NCBI RefSeq assembly: GCF_030818795.1
Contig: NZ_JAUTAY010000001.1
Location: 1,550,001 to 1,614,000 of the forward strand
Direction of reading: 5' to 3'
Length of the DNA stretch: 64,000 nucleotides
Source of the DNA: Microbacterium sp. SORGH_AS_0862
GTDB taxonomy: Bacteria; Actinomycetota; Actinomycetes; Actinomycetales; Microbacteriaceae
Positions 12,614-25,117 of the stretch are shown in pieces. Within the stretch, counting starts at the first letter, position 1; every line of letters starts with the position of its first letter. The notes below the pieces were generated by a model. The model had not been told where the DNA came from. It saw only the letters and a list, made by a program, of their open reading frames with translations, and did no database searches. Position numbers and translations under genes: made by a program.

Positions 12614-13645
12614 GTGGACGAGTCAGTGAACGGATCACCGCGACGCGTGGGCCGGATTCTCCTGCTCGCCGCCGGCGTCGGCCTGCTCTGGGCGGGCGTC
12701 TCCGTACTGACCTCCACCTCCTCCGCGCACGCGGACGACGACGATCGCGGCGGCCTGATCGGGCTCGTGGGCGGCGTCACAGGCGCGGCGTCAGACCTCG
12801 TCGGCGCGACCACGGGCGCGGTCGGCGACATCCTTCCGCCCGTCGCCCCCGTGACGGATGCGGCCTCGCAGACGGTCTCGACCGTGACGACCGCCGTGTC
12901 GGACACCGTCGCCTACGTGCCCGAGGTCGTCCCGGAGCTTCAGCCCGTCGTCGAGCCCGTCGTCACGGAGATCGTGCAACCCGTCGTCACAGAGATCGTG
13001 CAGCCGGTCGTCACCGACGTCGTGCAGCCGGTCGTCGACGGGGTGGGTGGGATCGTGGAGCCGGTTCCCGTCGTCTCCGACGTCGTCGGCGCGATCGACC
13101 TTCCGAGCGTGGTGGGCGTCGTTTCCGACGTGGTCGGCGCTGTTCCCGGTGTGGTCGGTTCGGTGGACGACACGGTCGGCACCGTCATCGGCACGCCCGG
13201 TCAGCCGACGAACGGGGGAGTCGTCCCGTCCGTTCCCATTCCGGGCACGGATCAGGTGTCCGAGCCCGGCGCGAGTCCTCACCCGACGCAGGAAGCGGCC
13301 ACCGCAGCCCTCGTGGCCGCGCTGACAGCAACGGTGGACGCGCGCCATGCGAGCGTCGCGGGAGCCGGCGGAGCCGCGTTCGCCACGCCGAGTGCGGCCG
13401 CGCCCGCCCGCAGCCTGGATCTCTTCGGCGCACCGCCGTTGCCTGGACACTCCGCTCCGTGGGAGGGCTCTGCGCCCTCCGGCTCGTCTTCCTCGGGCTC
13501 CTCGTCCGGCCCGCTGAGCTTCGCCCTCGGATGGGTGAACGGCTCCGCGTGGCCTGGTTCTGCAGGCTCGGCCGTCGCTCCCCGCGATGGCGACGATGAT
13601 CTTCCCTCCTCCCCGGTCTTCGACACCGACGTCGCCCCCGACTGA
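12614..13645 (+). CDS. secreted Val/Pro-rich repeat protein, function unknown
   Basis: A 343-aa exported protein with no recognised domain. A GTG start is preceded by AGGGGGTG. Residues 13-38 form a signal peptide ([20 protein letters not shown], with SSAHA at the likely cleavage site). The mature protein starts with an acidic DDDDRGG segment and then has a valine/proline repeat region at about 110-150 in which [24 protein letters not shown] recur, suggesting an extended rod. A Gly/Ser-rich part follows near 285-310 and the C-terminus is acidic. No sorting signal or C-terminal membrane helix is seen. It is followed 97 bases later by a cell-wall-anchored repeat protein and may be expressed with it. 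Both sit between conserved dnaB and rplI genes, so they look like a surface-protein insertion. Confidence 0.6.
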
Positions 13646-13742
13646 CCGATTCGGGTCGCGTCTCGCACGCGACACATCCCTGCACGCTCGCGTGCATCCG
13701 CGCTTCCGCGCGGTCCGAATCGATCAATCAGGAGACAGAATC

Positions 13743-15479
13743 ATGCGTACATTCGCAAAGCGAGTGCTCCTCGGAGCACTCATCGGCGGCGGCATCGCCA
13801 TCGCCGGAGCAACGGTCGCGAACGCGGCCGAGACAGACGGGCAGGACGGCCTGCTCTCGGGCGCCCAGGGCCTGATCAACGTGGCGGTCCCCGTCACGGT
13901 CAGCGGCAACGCCATCTCCCTGCTGGGAGACTCCGCGTCGCAGGATGCGGCGACCGAGGTGGCCGCGCCCACGGCCAGCACGGGCTCGAACGAGACATCA
14001 GGCACCGATGGGGTCGCCAGCGGCACCCAGGCGCTGGTCGATGTGACGATCCCCGTCACCGTCAGCGGCACGAGCATCTCGCTCACCGGCGACAGCACGT
14101 CGTCCGGCGCCGAGACGGCTCCCGCCGCGCCGACATCGGATGCGGGTTCGCCCGCCACCACCGACGGAACCGACAGCGTCGCCGGCGGTACCCAGGTGGT
14201 CGCACCCGTCACCGCCCCGGCCACCGTCAGCGGGAACGCCATCTCGCTGCTCGGTGACAGCGACACCACGGACGCCACCACCGCCACGGGAACCACCGGA
14301 TCCGGCAGCGCGGACGGCGCGATGACCGGCGGCTCCGACGGTGCCGTCAGCGGCACCCAGGTCGTCGCGCCCGTCACCGCTCCGGTGACGGTGGGCGGCA
14401 ACGCGATCTCGCTGCTCGGCGACAGCGCGACGAGCGACGCCGTCACGGCACCCGCATCCACCGGCTCGGGCAGCGCGGGCGGCGCGATGACGGACGGCAC
14501 CGACGGCATCCTCGGCGGCACGCAGGCGGTCGCCCCGATCGCGGCTCCCGTGACCGTGGGCGGCAACGCCATCTCCCTCATCGGAGACAGCACCACCACC
14601 GACGCCGCCACGGCGTCCGGCACCACCGGCACCGGCAGCACCAACGGCGCGATGACCGGCGGCTCCGACGGTGCCGTCAGCGGCACCCAGGTCGTCGCAC
14701 CCGTCACCGCACCGGTCACGGTCGGCGGCAACGCCATCTCCCTCACCGGAGACAGCACCACGACCGACGCCGCCACGGCGTCCGGCACCACCGGCACCGG
14801 CAGCGCGGGCGGCGCGATGACGGACGGCACCGACGGCATCCTCGGCGGCACGCAGGTGCTCGCACCGATCACCGCTCCCGTGACCGTGGGCGGCAACGCC
14901 ATCTCGCTGACGGGCGACAGCACCTCCACCGACGCTGAGACGGCCGCTCCGACCGGCAACGGCACGGTCCCGGCGCTCACCTCGGGTGAGGACGGGATCC
15001 TCGGCGGGACGCAGCTGGGTCTTCCCATCACGGCGCCGATCACGCTGGGCGGCAACGCCATCTCGGTGACCGGCGACGCGACCACCGAGAACCCGGGTAC
15101 CACCCCGGGAACCCCTGGTGAGCCCGGTACCCCTGGTGAGCCCGGAACGCCCGGTGAGCCGGGTACCCCCGGCGAGCCCGGCACGCCCGGTGAGCCCGGT
15201 ACCCCCGGCGAGCCCGGCACGCCCGGTGAGCCCGGCACTCCCGGAACGCCTGGTACCCCCGGAACGCCTGGTACCCCCGGCACCCCGGGAACGCCCGGTG
15301 CGAACGGGAGCCCCGCTGCCGTGACCGGCGTCGTGAGCGCAGACGCACGGGCTGCTGACGGATCGCTCGCGATGACCGGCGGAGCGGATGTGGCGGGCCT
15401 CGCGCTCGGCGCCTTCCTCCTGGCAGGGTTCGGCGCGCTCATCGCGCTGATCGCCCGCCGCCGTCACGCTCAGATCTGA
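13743..15479 (+). CDS. chaplin-like repeat surface protein with collagen-like stalk and LAXTG-type sorting signal
   Basis: A 578-aa exported protein. The signal peptide is [23 protein letters not shown]. Eight repeats follow, each centred on a segment such as [20 protein letters not shown] followed by LxGDS, and separated by Thr/Ala/Gly linkers to a period near 57 residues. The repeat core resembles the chaplin motif (Q-V-x-x-P-V-x-x-P-V-x-V-x-G-N-x-I) but lacks both cysteines. A collagen-like GTPGEP tract covers about residues 455-520. The end has LAMTGG, a hydrophobic helix ([21 protein letters not shown]) and RRRH, the layout of a class E sortase substrate. AGGAGA precedes the ATG at 13743. 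It is probably attached to peptidoglycan and may form a hydrophobic or adhesive surface layer; the sortase is not in this window. Confidence 0.75.
14318..14880 (+). repeat. near-identical DNA repeats within the chaplin-like gene
   Basis: A block containing GCGATGACCGGCGGCTCCGA occurs at about 14318 and again at about 14648. A second block containing GGCGGCGCGATGACGGACGG occurs at about 14476 and about 14809. Both pairs are about 330 bases apart, equal to two protein repeats, so the gene has a doublet higher-order repeat. The near-identity suggests recent duplication or recombination and makes copy number prone to change or misassembly. Confidence 0.7.
15109..15300 (+). repeat. collagen-like GGTACCCCTGGTGAGCCC-type tandem repeat
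   Basis: An 18-base unit encoding GTPGEP is repeated about eight times with silent variation, then a nine-base GTP-type unit about six times, within the stalk of the surface protein. It is typical of length-variable collagen-like tracts. Confidence 0.8.
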
Positions 15480-15543: not shown

Positions 15544-15996
15544 TTACTTCGCGGCGACCACCTGGAGGGAGATCACGGCGGTCACGTCGTCGCGAAGACG
15601 AACCGTGGCCTCGTGCACACCCACCGACTTGATCGGCGACGTGAACTGCACCTTGCGCTTGTCGATCTCGCCGATGCCGGCGGTCTTGACGGCGTTGGCG
15701 ACGTCCTCGGTCTTGACCGAGCCGAAGAGACGACCCTCAGCGCCCGCCTTGACGGTGAGCTTGACCTTGTCGGCCTCGAGAGCGTTCTTCAGTGCGACGG
15801 CGTCCTCGTGGTCGTGGATCGCGCGAGCCTCGCGGGCGGCGCGGATCGACGCGACCTGCTTCTCGCCACCACGGGTCCACGCGACAGCGAAGCCCTGGGG
15901 GATGAGGTAGTTGCGGGCGTACCCGTTCTTGACCTCGACCACGTCACCGGCGCTACCGAGCCCGGTGACCTCGTTCGTGAGAATCAGCTTTGCCAT
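15544..15996 (-). CDS. rplI: 50S ribosomal protein bL9
   Basis: A 150-aa component of the large ribosomal subunit that binds 23S rRNA. The N-terminal domain is canonical: [36 protein letters not shown] long connecting helix follows (residues about 40-75) and the C-terminal domain ends in [15 protein letters not shown]. The length is normal. It is the last gene of the rpsF-ssb-rpsR-rplI operon and begins 11 bases after the rpsR stop. A strong hairpin follows it. Confidence 0.97.
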
Positions 15997-19425: not shown

Positions 19426-20172
19426 TCAGGCGAGGGCGCCGCCGCGACGTTCGCGCTCGAGGAACCGGATCGTCTCGGGATGCTGCGGCGCGTCGAAGAC
19501 CTGCGCGGGTGTCCCCTGCTCGATGATCGTGCCGCCCTGCATGAACACGATGCGGTCGGCCACCTCCCGCGCGAACGACATCTCGTGCGTCGCCATCAGG
19601 ATGGTGGAGCCGCGGGTCTTGAGCTCGCGCACCAGATCGAGCACCTCGCCCACGAGCTGCGGGTCGAGCGCGCTGGTGATCTCGTCCAGCAGGAGGAGCT
19701 CGGGATCCGTCATGATCGCGCGCACGATGGCGACGCGCTGCTGCTGCCCGCCCGAGAGGCGGTCGGGGAACTCACGAGCCTTCGCCCCGAGGCCCAGCGT
19801 CTCGAGCAGCTCCATGCCGCGGGCACGCGCCTGCTCGCGCGGCACGCCGTGTACGCGCCGCGCCGCCAGGGTGACGTTGTCGATCACGCGCAGATGCGGG
19901 AAGAGATTGAAGTGCTGGAACACGACGCCGATGCGGGCGCGCACCGCATCCTGATCGACCGTGGGATCGGTGATGTCGTCGCCGCTGAGCAGGATGCGGC
20001 CGTCGTCGACCTGCTCGATGAGGTTGATCGTGCGCAGCAGCGTCGACTTGCCGGAGCCCGAGGCTCCGATCAGCACCACGACCTCGTGCTGGGCGAGAGT
20101 CAGGTCGATGCCGCGCAGCACCTGGTGGTCGCCGAAGTCCTTGCGCACGCCGATGACGTCGAGAACGCTCAC
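19426..20172 (-). CDS. amino-acid ABC transporter ATP-binding protein
   Basis: A 248-aa cytoplasmic ATPase with Walker A GASGSGKST, Q-loop [14 protein letters not shown], signature LSGGQQQR, Walker B LLLLDEITSALD and H-loop ATHEMSF. The FNLFPH pattern places it with polar-amino-acid importers. The GTG at 20172 overlaps the permease stop (GTGA). It is the last gene in a minus-strand run made of a SAHH-like gene, a deaminase, a cupin, a receptor, a permease and this ATPase. The reading frame stays open to 21009, but that part is a shadow of the permease. Confidence 0.92.
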   Translation of the reverse strand: MSVLDVIGVRKDFGDHQVLRGIDLTLAQHEVVVLIGASGSGKSTLLRTINLIEQVDDGRILLSGDDITDPTVDQDAVRARIGVVFQHFNLFPHLRVIDNVTLAARRVHGVPREQARARGMELLETLGLGAKAREFPDRLSGGQQQRVAIVRAIMTDPELLLLDEITSALDPQLVGEVLDLVRELKTRGSTILMATHEMSFAREVADRIVFMQGGTIIEQGTPAQVFDAPQHPETIRFLERERRGGALA

Positions 20173-21029
20173 ACGACACCCCCGGTCTGCTCGCGGCGGG
20201 CGAGACGTGCCGAGACCCAGTCGGTGAGACGGATCATCGGCAGGCTCATGGCCACGAAGAGAAGCCCCGCCACGATGTACGGGGTGAAGTTGTAGGTCGC
20301 GGCCACCTGGATCTGGGCGGCGCGCACGGCGTCGACGGCACCGAGGACGGAGATGAGTCCCACATCCTTCTGCATCGACACGAAGTCGTTCATGAGAGCG
20401 GGCACGACCTTGCGCACGCCCTGCGGGATGACGACGATGCGCAGGGTCTGCGCGTGGCTGAGTCCGAGCGACCGGGCGGCGATCCGCTGCGAGGGATGCA
20501 CCGCCTCCATGCCCGCGCGCAGCACCTCGGCGACGTACGCCGAGTAGGTGAGCACGATCGCGATCGTGCCCCAGAGCACCACCGGCACGCGGCCGAAGAT
20601 GCCGAGCGCGGGGATGCCGAACCCGACGAGGTACAGCACGATCAGCAGCGGCATCCCGCGGAAGAGGTCGGTGTAGACGGTGGCGAGGGCACGGAGCGGG
20701 AAGAACACCGGGCCGCGCAGCGAGCGCATCACGGCGAGCAGCGTGCCGATCACAGCGACGGCGAGGGCAGCCACCAGCAGCACCTGGATGTTGACCCACA
20801 GCCCGGCGAGCACCGAGGGGAAGGCGGCGAGCGCGATGTCGACGTCGAAGAAGCTCCGGCGCACGTCCTCCCAGCCGGGGCTGGAGACGATCGCGTAGCC
20901 GATGACGGCGACGAAGACGACGGTGCTGGCGAGGGCGATCAGCACCGATCTCGTGGACTGCCGGCGCCGCGTGGCGCGCCGGGCGAGCTCGAGCTCGCTC
21001 GGCTGCCACGCGGCGTCGGTCGTGGTCAT
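20169..21029 (-). CDS. amino-acid ABC transporter permease
   Basis: A 286-aa membrane subunit. A first helix at about 28-48 (SVLIALASTVVFVAVIGYAIV) precedes the BPD_transp_1 domain at about 75-280. Recognisable patterns are LFRGMPLLIVLYLVGFGIP and the EAA loop QRIAARSLGLSHAQTLRIVVIPQGVRKVVPAL. Compared with typical GlnP, the first periplasmic loop is extended. The start at 21029 (MTTTDAAWQ) lies three bases after the receptor stop and the end is coupled to the ATPase. Confidence 0.9.
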   Translation of the reverse strand: MTTTDAAWQPSELELARRATRRRQSTRSVLIALASTVVFVAVIGYAIVSSPGWEDVRRSFFDVDIALAAFPSVLAGLWVNIQVLLVAALAVAVIGTLLAVMRSLRGPVFFPLRALATVYTDLFRGMPLLIVLYLVGFGIPALGIFGRVPVVLWGTIAIVLTYSAYVAEVLRAGMEAVHPSQRIAARSLGLSHAQTLRIVVIPQGVRKVVPALMNDFVSMQKDVGLISVLGAVDAVRAAQIQVAATYNFTPYIVAGLLFVAMSLPMIRLTDWVSARLARREQTGGVV

Positions 21030-21031
21030 GT

Positions 21032-21886
21032 TCAGCCGAGGACCGGAACGTCGACGGCTTCGCTGAGCCAGGTCTTCTGCAGCTCGTCGAGCGTGCCGTC
21101 CGCGCGGAGCTCGTCGAGCGCCTTCGACACGGGGTCGGTCAGCTCCGAGCCCTTGGGCAGCACGTAGGCGAGCTGGTCGCCGCCGGTCGTGTCGGCGAAC
21201 TGACCGAGGATCTTGCCGCCGTCGAGCTCGGCGTTCGCGAGGTAAAAAGCGGTGGGCAGGTCGATCACGAACGCGTCGATCTGGCCGGACTGGAAGGCGA
21301 GCACGACGTCGTCGTTGTTGTTGAAGACGCTGAGTTTGTCGGTGCCGAGCTCCTCGGCGGCGACGGTGTAACTGGTCGTGCCGCTCATAACGCCGACCGT
21401 GTAGCCCTTGAGCTGGTCGATCGTCGTCGCGTTCGCCGCGGCCGAGCTGTCGGAGGTGACGACGGCCTGCGAGGTCGTGTAGTACGGCGACGAGAAGTCG
21501 ACGGCCTGCTTGCGCTCGTCGGTCACCGAGAACTGCTGGATGTTGAGGTCCCAGTCCTTGGGCCCCGGCGCGATGGCGCTGTCGAACGTGGAACGCACCC
21601 ACACGACGTCGTCGGCCGAGAAGCCGAGCTTCTCCGCCAGCGCGTATGAGACGGCCGACTCGAAACCCTTCTGGTTGGAGGGGTCGTTGTCGACGATCCA
21701 GGGGTCGTACGCCGGCTCGCCGGTGGCGATGGTCAGCTTGCCCGCGGTGAGGGTCGGAAGCGACCCGTCCTCGGATGCGGCGGGGGCGGACTCCCCCGCG
21801 AAGGCACAGGCGGTCAGGGCGAGCGCTGCGACGGCGCCGAGGGCGGCACCGGCGGTCAGGCGCCGGAGGCGGGAGGTCGTGATCAC
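21032..21886 (-). CDS. ABC transporter substrate-binding lipoprotein (SBP_bac_3)
   Basis: A 284-aa receptor with a signal peptide and lipobox LTAC at about residue 26, so it is lipid-anchored outside the membrane. The SBP_bac_3 fold shows KLTIATGEPAYDPWIVDNDPSNQKGFESAVSYALAEKLG, WDLNIQQFSVTDERKQAVDFSSPYY and a C-terminal LDELRADGTLDELQKTW helix. A GTG starts it. The gene follows the cupin by 68 bases and leads directly into permease and ATPase. In the context of a deaminase and a SAHH-like enzyme its ligand may be an amino-acid-bearing nucleoside or a related thioether; that is inference. Confidence 0.88.
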   Translation of the reverse strand: MITTSRLRRLTAGAALGAVAALALTACAFAGESAPAASEDGSLPTLTAGKLTIATGEPAYDPWIVDNDPSNQKGFESAVSYALAEKLGFSADDVVWVRSTFDSAIAPGPKDWDLNIQQFSVTDERKQAVDFSSPYYTTSQAVVTSDSSAAANATTIDQLKGYTVGVMSGTTSYTVAAEELGTDKLSVFNNNDDVVLAFQSGQIDAFVIDLPTAFYLANAELDGGKILGQFADTTGGDQLAYVLPKGSELTDPVSKALDELRADGTLDELQKTWLSEAVDVPVLG

Positions 21887-21954
21887 GGGGACTCCAAGCA
21901 GGAAGAGGGGGTGTCGGGTCGGGCGTCGGCGGGTTGCTGTGGCCGACGCCGCGC

Positions 21955-22392
21955 TCAGCCTAGATCACGCGCGAGTCGCCAGTCCTCGAAGCTGAAACCT
22001 GGCGAAACGACACAGCTGACGAGCGCTTCGACCTCGCCGCCCAGCCGGGCGGACTGCCACACGCCTGCCGGCACCGTCACCTGCGCGAGGTGTCCGGCGG
22101 CGAGGTCCGGCCCGAGGGTCACGGTGCGTTCGGCGACCGGCTCGTCGCCCTCGCCCCCGAAGCTCAGCTCGAGGGTTCCCGGTCCGTGCCAAAGCCAGAT
22201 CTCGTCGCTCGTGACGACGTGCCACGCGCTGTGCTCGCCGGGTGTGAGTAGGTAGTGGATGCAGGTGGCCGCCGGCCGAGGGCCCGTCGGCGTCTCCACC
22301 CCTGCGGTCGCGGTCCACATCCGGCGGAACCAACCGCCCTCGGGATGCGGAGCGAGATCGAGGGTGACGGCGGTGGCGGGACGGGTGCTCAT
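21955..22392 (-). CDS. DUF985 cupin-fold protein
   Basis: A 145-aa single-domain cupin of the DUF985 (YML079-like) family. The diagnostic segments are LAPHPEGGWFRRMW, TCIHYLLTPGEHSAWHVVTSDEIWLWHGPG and LVSCVVSPGFSFEDWRLA. These proteins form a beta-barrel that binds a small molecule, possibly a sugar or nucleotide; no activity is settled. Its ATG overlaps the deaminase stop (ATGA), so it is translated with that gene and probably shares a pathway. Confidence 0.85.
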   Translation of the reverse strand: MSTRPATAVTLDLAPHPEGGWFRRMWTATAGVETPTGPRPAATCIHYLLTPGEHSAWHVVTSDEIWLWHGPGTLELSFGGEGDEPVAERTVTLGPDLAAGHLAQVTVPAGVWQSARLGGEVEALVSCVVSPGFSFEDWRLARDLG

Positions 22393-23690
22393 GCGCTGAC
22401 TCCGGTGTGCTCGGTGAAGGAGGGTGTCGTGTGTCGGAACCCGCCGCTGATCACGGTGGCCGCCGCGTGGCCCGCGCCGTCGGTGGCGAGGTGCTCGATC
22501 GTGTCGTCGATCGTCGTGACGGGGATGTCGAGGAAGGCGAGGTCGGCGAGGGCTCCGACCGCGAGGTAGCCGGTGCGATCGGGGCCCGTGTCGATGCCCA
22601 TCGCGTGCGCGCCGCCGAGGGTCGCGGCCCGCAGCAGCTGAGCCGCGAGAGCTCGGTCGGAGTAGCCCTGCGCCCTGGCGATGCGGTGCAGCGCCGCCAC
22701 ATCCGCGAGCAGGTCCAGCGACGGACTCGAGGAGAGGGAGTCCGTGCCGACGGCGATGCCGTTGCCCTCGGCGAGGTAGGCGGCGACGGGCGGTTCGTCG
22801 AGGCCGATGACGGCGTTGGAGCGGGGGCAGAGCGCCACGGAGGTGCCGCGGGCGCGCAGCAGGGCGCGATCGCGTGCGGTCATGTAGACGCCGTGCGCGA
22901 TGTGGCAGTCGGGTCCGAGCACGCCGAGCTGATCGACGAACTCGGTCGCCCCCGTGCCGAAACCGTCGCCGCGCAGCTCGCGGAAGCTGCCGGCGCGACG
23001 CTCCTGCCACGGCGTCGGATGCGGGCCGCCCGACTCGCGCTCGAACGCGGCCTCACCGAGGTGCAGATGGATGCGGCCGCCGCGCTCGCGCACGATGTCG
23101 GGGATCTCCAGCAGCGGCTCGACGTCCAGCGAGTACGGCGCGTGGGGCGAGAGCCCGGTGCCGGGTGGGGACGGCAGCGCGTCCAGCGCCGCCTCGACCT
23201 GCGCTCTGCCGGTCGCCGCCCAGTCGGCGTTGGTCCAGCTCATCACCTCCCAGTAGGTGATGCCGTGAAGGCCCGCGTCGTGCAGCACACCGGCTGCGGG
23301 TGCATCGGTGACGATGTCGGCGACAGCGGTGGTGCCCGCCTCGATCACCGCGCGTGCTCCGGCGTCCGCATCCGCCTTCCAGTCGTGTCCGCGCTCGTAC
23401 ACCGGGTCGAACGCTGCCGCCCAGTCCTCGAAGCCGCGGTAGCTGCCGCGACCGACCTCGGCCATGCCCGTGTACTGCAGGTGCGAGTGGGCGTTGACGA
23501 GCCCCGGCAGGAGGACCCCCGGCCAGTGCACCTCGGTGAACGAGGCGCCGCGGGCTGTGAGCTCGCGGCGCACCCAGTCGCGATCGCCGACGTGGCGGAT
23601 GCGGCCGCCGCTGACGGCGATCGCTCCCTGCGGGATCGGCGGTGCGGTGATGGGCAGCACCAGATCGGCCGAGTACAGCACCACGCTCAT
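22389..23690 (-). CDS. COG0402 amidohydrolase, probable purine-nucleoside-type deaminase
   Basis: A 433-aa metal-dependent amidohydrolase of the MTA/SAH deaminase - chlorohydrolase branch. Metal and catalytic residues can be read: HxH in NAHSHLQYTGM, LSPHAPYSL, the His/Glu strand in HLHLGEAAFERE, IAHGVYM, and the Asp in VGTDSLSSS. A C-terminal composite beta-sandwich completes the family layout. Relatives deaminate S-adenosylhomocysteine, methylthioadenosine, guanine or aminofutalosine, so the substrate is open. The ATG at 23690 overlaps the SAHH-like stop. Pairing with that gene favours a ring-deaminated homocysteine nucleoside as an intermediate, by inference. Confidence 0.85.
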   Translation of the reverse strand: MSVVLYSADLVLPITAPPIPQGAIAVSGGRIRHVGDRDWVRRELTARGASFTEVHWPGVLLPGLVNAHSHLQYTGMAEVGRGSYRGFEDWAAAFDPVYERGHDWKADADAGARAVIEAGTTAVADIVTDAPAAGVLHDAGLHGITYWEVMSWTNADWAATGRAQVEAALDALPSPPGTGLSPHAPYSLDVEPLLEIPDIVRERGGRIHLHLGEAAFERESGGPHPTPWQERRAGSFRELRGDGFGTGATEFVDQLGVLGPDCHIAHGVYMTARDRALLRARGTSVALCPRSNAVIGLDEPPVAAYLAEGNGIAVGTDSLSSSPSLDLLADVAALHRIARAQGYSDRALAAQLLRAATLGGAHAMGIDTGPDRTGYLAVGALADLAFLDIPVTTIDDTIEHLATDGAGHAAATVISGGFRHTTPSFTEHTGVSA

Positions 23691-25117
23691 CCGCGGGTCT
23701 CCTCGTAGCGGGCCGAGCGCCAGTCGCCGTCCGAACCGGCGGTCGCGGAACGCTCGTCGATCCGCACGCCGCGGGCGGCGAGCGCCGCACGGCCGACACG
23801 GTCGTCGATCTCGGACGGGAGCGCGTGCACGCCGACACCCGGGCGGGTGCGCAGCAGGTGGTCGAGGGCGGCGAGCTGCACCGCGAACGACAGGTCCATG
23901 ATCTCGATCGGGTTGCCCTCGGCGGCGGTGATGTTCACCGCTCCGCCGGCACCGAGCAGGAGAGTTGCGGATGTGGCGGCCGCCGCCGTCACCTCTCCCG
24001 GCACGCCGCCTGCGACGGCGATCGCCACGGCGCGCTCGGCGAGGGCCGCGTCGATCGTGCCGGCGACGCCGGTGGCCGAGACGACGAGCGCGCCGTCCGC
24101 CAATGCGGATGCGGGGCCGACCGCATAGCCGTCGTGGCGCGCGGTGAGAGCCCGCACCGGGTCGACCTCGGCCACGGAGACGGCCGCACCCAGGGCGCGC
24201 AGGTATGCCGCGACGCCTTCGCCGACGGGGCCGTAGCCGATGACGAGCGCGGGTTGGTCGCGGACGGTCAGCCCGTGCTGATCGAGGAGGTCCGCGATCG
24301 CCAGAACGCAGGAGAAGCCGGTGCCATAGCGGTTGTCGAACCGAGTCTTGGCGGCGGCGTCGTTGACGGCCATGACCGGGGTGCGCAGCAGCCCCGCCGC
24401 ATCCATCCGCCGCAGCGGCGTGAGACCCGAAGTGGTCTCCTCGTTCGCACCGATCCAGGATGCGGCGATCGCGGGGTCGATCTCGTGGGCCAGGCGGATG
24501 AGGTGCGAGCCGTCGTCGATGAGAATGTCGAAGCCCCGGCGCAGGAAACTCTCGGCCGCCGCGCGCTCCTCGAGACCCGACAGGTCGGCGCCGCCGTCGA
24601 CGGGGATCCCCCGCTGCGCGAGCGCCGCGGCGACGGCCGCATCCGTCTCGTCGGGGTGACCGTAGACCGCGACGTCGGCGCCGCGAGAGCGCAGCAGGAG
24701 CGCCAGCTGGGCGGTCTTCGGCTCGAGCACCATGCACACGCCGATGCGCAGACCCCGCACGTCGATGTCCTCGGCGAGGGTCGCCGAGACCGGCATGTGA
24801 GAGGCGGCGAAGGCGATGCGTGCCGCGGCGTCGGGCCGCTCGGGCAGCGGCGCGCCGCCGAGGAGGACAGGCACATCCGTGGGATCCGCGCCGGCGGGAA
24901 GAGCCGTGAAGTCGAAGCGCAGCATCCCCGCATCCGAGGCCGCCCCGGTCGTGAGGACCGCACCCAGATCGTGCAGCAGAGCCGTGAGTCGCTCGGCGAC
25001 GACGCGGTGGGCGGGCGCGGTGTCGACCCGCACTGTGCGCGAGGCGATCATGAGATTCGTGCGGCGGGCGAAGCGACGCACGATCGCCTCCGCGATGCGC
25101 GTCGTATCCACCGGCAT
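23687..25117 (-). CDS. divergent adenosylhomocysteinase (SAHH) homologue with altered base pocket
   Basis: A 476-aa NAD-dependent enzyme homologous to S-adenosylhomocysteine hydrolase. The NAD fold has GYGPVGEGVA. The catalytic segments are kept: LIDDGSHL (Asp131 region of human SAHH), NEETTSG (Glu156), and VNDAAAKTRFDNRYG (Lys186, Asp190). NITAAEGNPIEIMDLSF matches the C-terminal signature. However, the adenine-binding stretch, normally CLHMTVETAVL, reads CMVLEPKTAQL here, so His55, Thr57 and Glu59 are replaced by Val, Glu and Lys. The GHFD motif is absent and the usual KPDHYRY tail is missing. It probably cleaves a related substrate rather than ordinary SAH. First gene of a six-gene run with a deaminase, a cupin and an importer. 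Confidence 0.8.
   Translation of the reverse strand: MPVDTTRIAEAIVRRFARRTNLMIASRTVRVDTAPAHRVVAERLTALLHDLGAVLTTGAASDAGMLRFDFTALPAGADPTDVPVLLGGAPLPERPDAAARIAFAASHMPVSATLAEDIDVRGLRIGVCMVLEPKTAQLALLLRSRGADVAVYGHPDETDAAVAAALAQRGIPVDGGADLSGLEERAAAESFLRRGFDILIDDGSHLIRLAHEIDPAIAASWIGANEETTSGLTPLRRMDAAGLLRTPVMAVNDAAAKTRFDNRYGTGFSCVLAIADLLDQHGLTVRDQPALVIGYGPVGEGVAAYLRALGAAVSVAEVDPVRALTARHDGYAVGPASALADGALVVSATGVAGTIDAALAERAVAIAVAGGVPGEVTAAAATSATLLLGAGGAVNITAAEGNPIEIMDLSFAVQLAALDHLLRTRPGVGVHALPSEIDDRVGRAALAARGVRIDERSATAGSDGDWRSARYEETRG

Follow-up and report, generated by a model that had tools for sequence, protein, structure and literature searches.

A conserved six-gene operon joins a SAHH homologue without catalytic histidines to a deaminase and an importer, and may serve nucleoside salvage

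What does a homologue of S-adenosylhomocysteine hydrolase (SAHH) do once the histidines of its active site are gone? This question is raised by an operon in a 64,000-nucleotide stretch of Microbacterium sp. SORGH_AS_0862 (positions 1,550,001 to 1,614,000 of contig NZ_JAUTAY010000001.1, hereafter the window), whose genome is a single contig of 3.5 Mb. Gene calls bear out the preliminary description of six genes on one strand, here minus. The SAHH-like protein, which we call SAHH-B (25117-23687, 476 aa), leads a COG0402 deaminase (22389..23690, 433 aa), a DUF985 (Cupin_5) cupin (21955..22392, 145 aa), a family-3 solute-binding protein (21032..21886) and an amino-acid-type ABC permease (20169..21029, 286 aa) and ATPase (19426..20172, 248 aa); families were assigned with Pfam and NCBIfam. 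Three of the five junctions are 4-base overlaps (ATGA between SAHH-B and deaminase and between deaminase and cupin, GTGA between permease and ATPase), and 68 bases separate the cupin from the binding protein. The layout first described stands in these respects, except that a gap of 2 bases, and no overlap, separates the permease from the binding protein. We consider it somewhat better than an even chance that the operon is a self-contained module for the uptake and salvage, or catabolism, of an adenosine-type nucleoside carrying a side group.

The active site of SAHH-B

Databases name the SAHH-B clade adenosylhomocysteinase, implying methionine recycling, but its active site reads otherwise. 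By alignment, V130-L-E-P-K134 (24716..24730, minus strand, as are all sites given here) occupies the place of HxTxE in SAHH and HxExK in S-inosylhomocysteine hydrolase (SIHH), G370-G-V-P-G-E375 (23993..24010) that of the His301-Phe302 gate (GHFDVE), and G401-N-P403 (23909..23917) that of the GHP motif with His353. The previously described change of His55, Thr57 and Glu59 to Val, Glu and Lys is confirmed, as is the loss of GHFD, which is replaced by GGVP; His353 has become Asn. At the positions of catalytic His55 and gate His301 the window has Val and Gly, and His occurs in none of 309 aligned rows, which comprise the best matches listed and the loci found with the query and were chosen by likeness. 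In these rows Lys186 (307 of 309), Asp190 (308), Asn191 (309) and Asp131 (308) are retained, and the HxExK motif of SIHH is incomplete, with Glu and Lys in 308 rows each and His in none. Because the water-activating and 5'-group-holding histidines are gone, no canonical cycle of S-adenosylhomocysteine (SAH) hydrolysis is expected, and to judge from these residues SAHH-B probably does not hydrolyse its substrate in the manner of SAHH.

Although SAHH-B shares the fold and sequence homology of SAHH, it falls below the cut-offs of all five NCBIfam adenosylhomocysteinase models (224.8 against 497.6 for TIGR00936, 258.6 against 275 for NF004005, and likewise for the other three). It forms one clade with 100/99 support in a tree from which one row (can_L128), whose reading frame is suspect, was left out. 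The pocket Glu and Lys and the short C-terminus proved less special than first claimed, being usual in archaeal and Thermotoga-type SAHH (alignments; accessible part of PMC10978960). Unlike the SIHH or archaeal-type SAHH enzymes of P. furiosus (7r37), M. maripaludis (7r3a) and T. maritima (5tov), however, SAHH-B is without His55 and His301, and it further differs in the change of His353 to Asn, an extra N-terminal domain and an operon with an importer.

A precedent for new chemistry on this scaffold is AgmF, the angustmycin C dehydratase, a SAHH homologue in which H56A and H299A abolish activity (PMC8599513, accessible part). Like the reaction we propose for SAHH-B, that of AgmF departs from SAHH and involves NAD-dependent oxidation of the nucleoside sugar. 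AgmF nevertheless retains both histidines and depends on them, its substrate is an adenine nucleoside and its gene belongs to a biosynthesis cluster (same source), and SAHH-B has neither of the histidines essential to an AgmF-type dehydratase. A search of the literature, outside which most subscription papers lay, returned no description of the operon or of a histidine-less SAHH.

Conservation of the six-gene order

A scan of species genomes gave 146 relatives of SAHH-B, of which the best 80, the named loci, were examined. The preliminary description had set the same gene order in other genomes as a test beforehand, and in 70 of the 80 loci tblastn places all six within 5.6-7.1 kb, in a constant order and on a single strand. 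The ten exceptions reach a contig or locus end (L063, L066, L067), have the transporter divergent beside the enzymes (L098, L099), lack a cupin match (L044, L047) or a transporter match within the locus (L102, L106), or hold the enzyme pair only (L111). With the order kept in 70 loci, the neighbourhood is beyond chance; genes beyond the six vary between groups. The closest of the 80 loci, from Microbacteriaceae bacterium PS02066, encodes six proteins 91-99% identical to those of the window, and the genera represented include Microbacterium, Demequina, Agromyces, Salinibacterium, Frigoribacterium, Leifsonia, Frondihabitans, Curtobacterium, Humibacter, Schaalia and Rarobacter. Across the order, 32 of 297 genomes, counting that of the window, have a SAHH-B match at E <=1e-60, and the deaminase lies on the SAHH-B strand in all 29 loci L003-L031.

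Related clusters and other SAHH homologues

Elsewhere the SAHH-B and deaminase pair is accompanied by different importers. In Nonomuraea endophytica this is an ECF set whose S component is of the riboflavin type (Pfam PF07155), and on a plasmid labelled Roseateles sp. XES5 it is a sugar-type ABC importer, together with a LacI regulator and a nucleoside hydrolase. Two genomes of the window's genus with related clusters (G205 and G703) have sugar-type ABC genes, and G538 has an amino-acid-type importer. G205 and G703 carry a nucleoside hydrolase on the opposite strand, that of G703 scoring below family cut-offs. In G538 and on the Roseateles plasmid, SAHH-B stands in tandem with a second, histidine-bearing SAHH with HxExK and GHH motifs (SAHH-A). 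The G703 cluster continues with an NtaA/DmoA-family monooxygenase (L149:6822-8375) that matches alkane monooxygenase, dimethyl sulfide monooxygenase and riboflavin lyase chains; a similar reading frame was noticed by eye in G205 (L130:6365-7930).

Further homologues, which we term type C, lie on long branches, so that their placement in the tree is unsure. On a Vibrio nigripulchritudo plasmid (L145:4013-11089) one sits between a nucleoside hydrolase and an adenosine deaminase, in a cluster that continues with a ribokinase and a nucleoside transporter and also has a DeoR regulator. A type-C copy in the window's own genome (730,670-731,734; L118:8650-9762) lies beside another COG0402 deaminase; this copy keeps His55 and the GHH motif, has Glu for Asp190 and passes NF004005 (298.4 against 275). 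A CodA-like deaminase was seen by eye near this copy. Our case for nucleoside uptake followed by deamination as the first step rests mainly on the variety of importers and deaminases around SAHH homologues.

A second histidine-less clade, Rubrobacter-like, has Pro or Ala at position 55 and a GGV gate. Of its seven loci, four (L121, L123, L124, L127) have ECF genes next to the SAHH homologue, with QueT as the S component in both loci scanned (L121, L127), and no match to the window's deaminase was found close by in any of the seven. The L121 protein scores 599.9 as an adenosylhomocysteinase (NCBIfam).

The N-terminal extension of SAHH-B

The preliminary description overlooked that SAHH-B is extended at its N-terminus by about 97 residues (residues 1-97, 24827..25117); its SAHH match leaves out residues 1-93. 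With hhalign, a profile of 107 fused extensions and three split proteins aligned to the helix-strand-helix that opens the NAD domain of SAHH (probability 94.2 over 47 columns; E 1.1e-7, calculated for a single comparison). The split proteins come from G205, G703 and Nonomuraea, where the extension is a separate upstream protein overlapping SAHH-B by a few bases. Against a 74-row SAHH profile they gave E-values of 5.5e-10, 2.2e-7 and 2.3e-4, whereas none of 900 shuffled control sequences scored above 4.9 bits. Among 35 relatives of the G703 split protein taken from databases, 11 have a precomputed PF00670 match, and five of nine relatives scanned passed the Pfam cut-off, six of the nine having been picked for that mark. 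Scored singly, the window's own extension (L001) matched neither SAHH nor PF00670; among six fused extensions scored in this way only L003 was clear of the shuffles and L070 barely so, L001, L048, L098 and L103 not being clear of them.

From these profile comparisons, the extension is probably a vestige of the SAHH cofactor domain, a decayed SAHH-like partner that became fused to SAHH-B. Its ancestry is ambiguous between SAHH-A and SAHH-B: the Nonomuraea protein fits the SAHH-A profile better, those of G205 and G703 the SAHH-B profile.

A proposed route and its alternatives

Our reading draws on gene content, conservation, residue losses, the predicted fold and recurrent neighbours. The importer would take up an adenosine-type nucleoside, which in the window's clade probably has an alpha-amino acid end; the deaminase would convert its adenine to hypoxanthine; and SAHH-B may then use its ExK motif to bind the hypoxanthine nucleoside, oxidise the 3'-OH of the ribose by means of bound NAD and deprotonate C4'. 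Most likely it would go on to eliminate a better 5' leaving group, or to transform the 3'-keto nucleoside in some other way. The cupin might act on a product, and the nucleoside hydrolase near some sister clusters could end the route with base and ribose. Catalysis, use of NAD, the substrate class and the roles of cupin and hydrolase are what we infer from these data.

Tentatively, and at short of even chances, SAHH-B would be a new NAD-dependent 3'-keto nucleoside enzyme on the SAHH scaffold that adds no water at C5' (for instance a 5' eliminase, C4' epimerase or NAD-dependent nucleosidase), derived from a tandem of SAHH-A and SAHH-B whose A member was reduced to the remnant of a cofactor domain and, in the window's clade, became part of the B protein. 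As to the substrate, 5'-thio-linked adenosines such as SAH, hydrolysed or otherwise, are our leading guess, itself a doubtful one. If correct, the proposal would reveal an overlooked pathway for the breakdown of modified adenosine nucleosides in many Actinomycetota, and a well-known scaffold that has taken up new chemistry; SAHH-B, the deaminase and the binding protein are directly testable.

Identification of the deaminase as a COG0402 enzyme, made in the preliminary description, is upheld by Pfam and NCBIfam and by His68, His70, His210, Glu213, His266 and Asp317, invariant in 18 aligned rows; the HxH, second His/Glu, and His and Asp occupy what we take to be the metal-site positions of COG0402. 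It scores 50.1 against the cut-off of 779 for the methylthioadenosine (MTA)/SAH deaminase model NF012037. The loop after HxH appears by eye nearer the aminofutalosine enzymes. Identity to MTA/adenosine and aminofutalosine deaminases (4f0s, 4gbd, 7lkj and TM0936, 1p1m) is 18-26%. In the binding protein, Arg125 and Asp209 are kept in all 75 close relatives, as in a family-3 polar amino-acid importer; we take them to correspond to Arg75 and Asp157 of GlnBP, and presumably they contact the alpha-carboxylate and alpha-amino groups, respectively.

The preliminary description had proposed uptake and salvage of a homocysteine-type nucleoside or related compound through a deaminated intermediate. Of this we retain deaminate-first nucleoside salvage, while plain SAH salvage, with import, deamination to S-inosylhomocysteine and, on the Methanocaldococcus pattern, hydrolysis by SAHH-B into inosine and homocysteine with other residues or water replacing the histidines, is kept as a rival that we consider rather unlikely. 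It would account well for the amino-acid headgroup residues of the binding protein and for a Glu/Lys motif that is that of enzymes preferring S-inosylhomocysteine (PMC10978960, accessible part). In M. jannaschii, too, the deaminase (DadD) comes first and the SAHH-fold enzyme second, although that is the cell's methyl-cycle route, the enzyme keeps its histidine and a dedicated importer is unmentioned in the accessible part of PMC10978960. Against SAH salvage stand the absence of both histidines from every SAHH-B row, the inactivity of the AgmF mutants (PMC8599513, accessible part) and the binding protein itself, since across nine diverged rows, a set that includes the window's, Asp209 is kept in seven and Arg125 in all nine. 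The genomes speak on both sides: in the window's genome no SAHH passed the TIGR00936 cut-off, LuxS gave no match and MTA/SAH nucleosidase matches all fell below cut-off, but 19 of the 32 SAHH-B genomes do hold such a SAHH (13 do not), so SAHH-B is not the housekeeping enzyme there. The operon thus adds to the methyl-cycle enzyme, and its role as a general SAHH replacement is ruled out.

That deaminase and SAHH-B act on some other N-heterocycle glycoside or amino-acid compound is improbable. The deaminase does match many COG0402 families of differing substrates, and importer types vary between clusters; yet three loci, two being the related clusters of one genus, have a nucleoside hydrolase in the vicinity of the pair, the Vibrio relative adjoins a nucleoside hydrolase, an adenosine deaminase and a ribokinase, and SAHH-B keeps the ExK and ribose-binding residues. 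Slightly less probable still is a pseudoenzyme, a non-catalytic partner or sensor that would bind NAD and a nucleoside and so have a regulatory or stabilising effect on other proteins. Lost histidines and an attached vestigial domain would suit it, but the near invariance of Lys186, Asp190, Asn191 and Asp131 is unlike a decaying active site, and none of the other operon genes encodes a SAHH-fold enzyme for it to partner. Finally, an ordinary, divergent SAHH in a chance neighbourhood, as the adenosylhomocysteinase label of close relatives in public records would have it, is contradicted by the sub-threshold NCBIfam scores, the well-supported clade and the conserved gene order, and is very improbable.

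Other observations

As regards the substrate, the accessible part of PMC12709175 gave no link to 2'-O-methyl nucleoside breakdown. Rfam, searched for a riboswitch, returned only two tRNAs at gathering scores in six loci and, in the window region, one match far below gathering score. Elsewhere in the window, positions 13587-15479 encode a repeat-rich protein with PGTPGE repeats and, by eye, a hydrophobic C-terminal stretch, which is probably exported; an apparent rplI lies nearby at 15544-15996.
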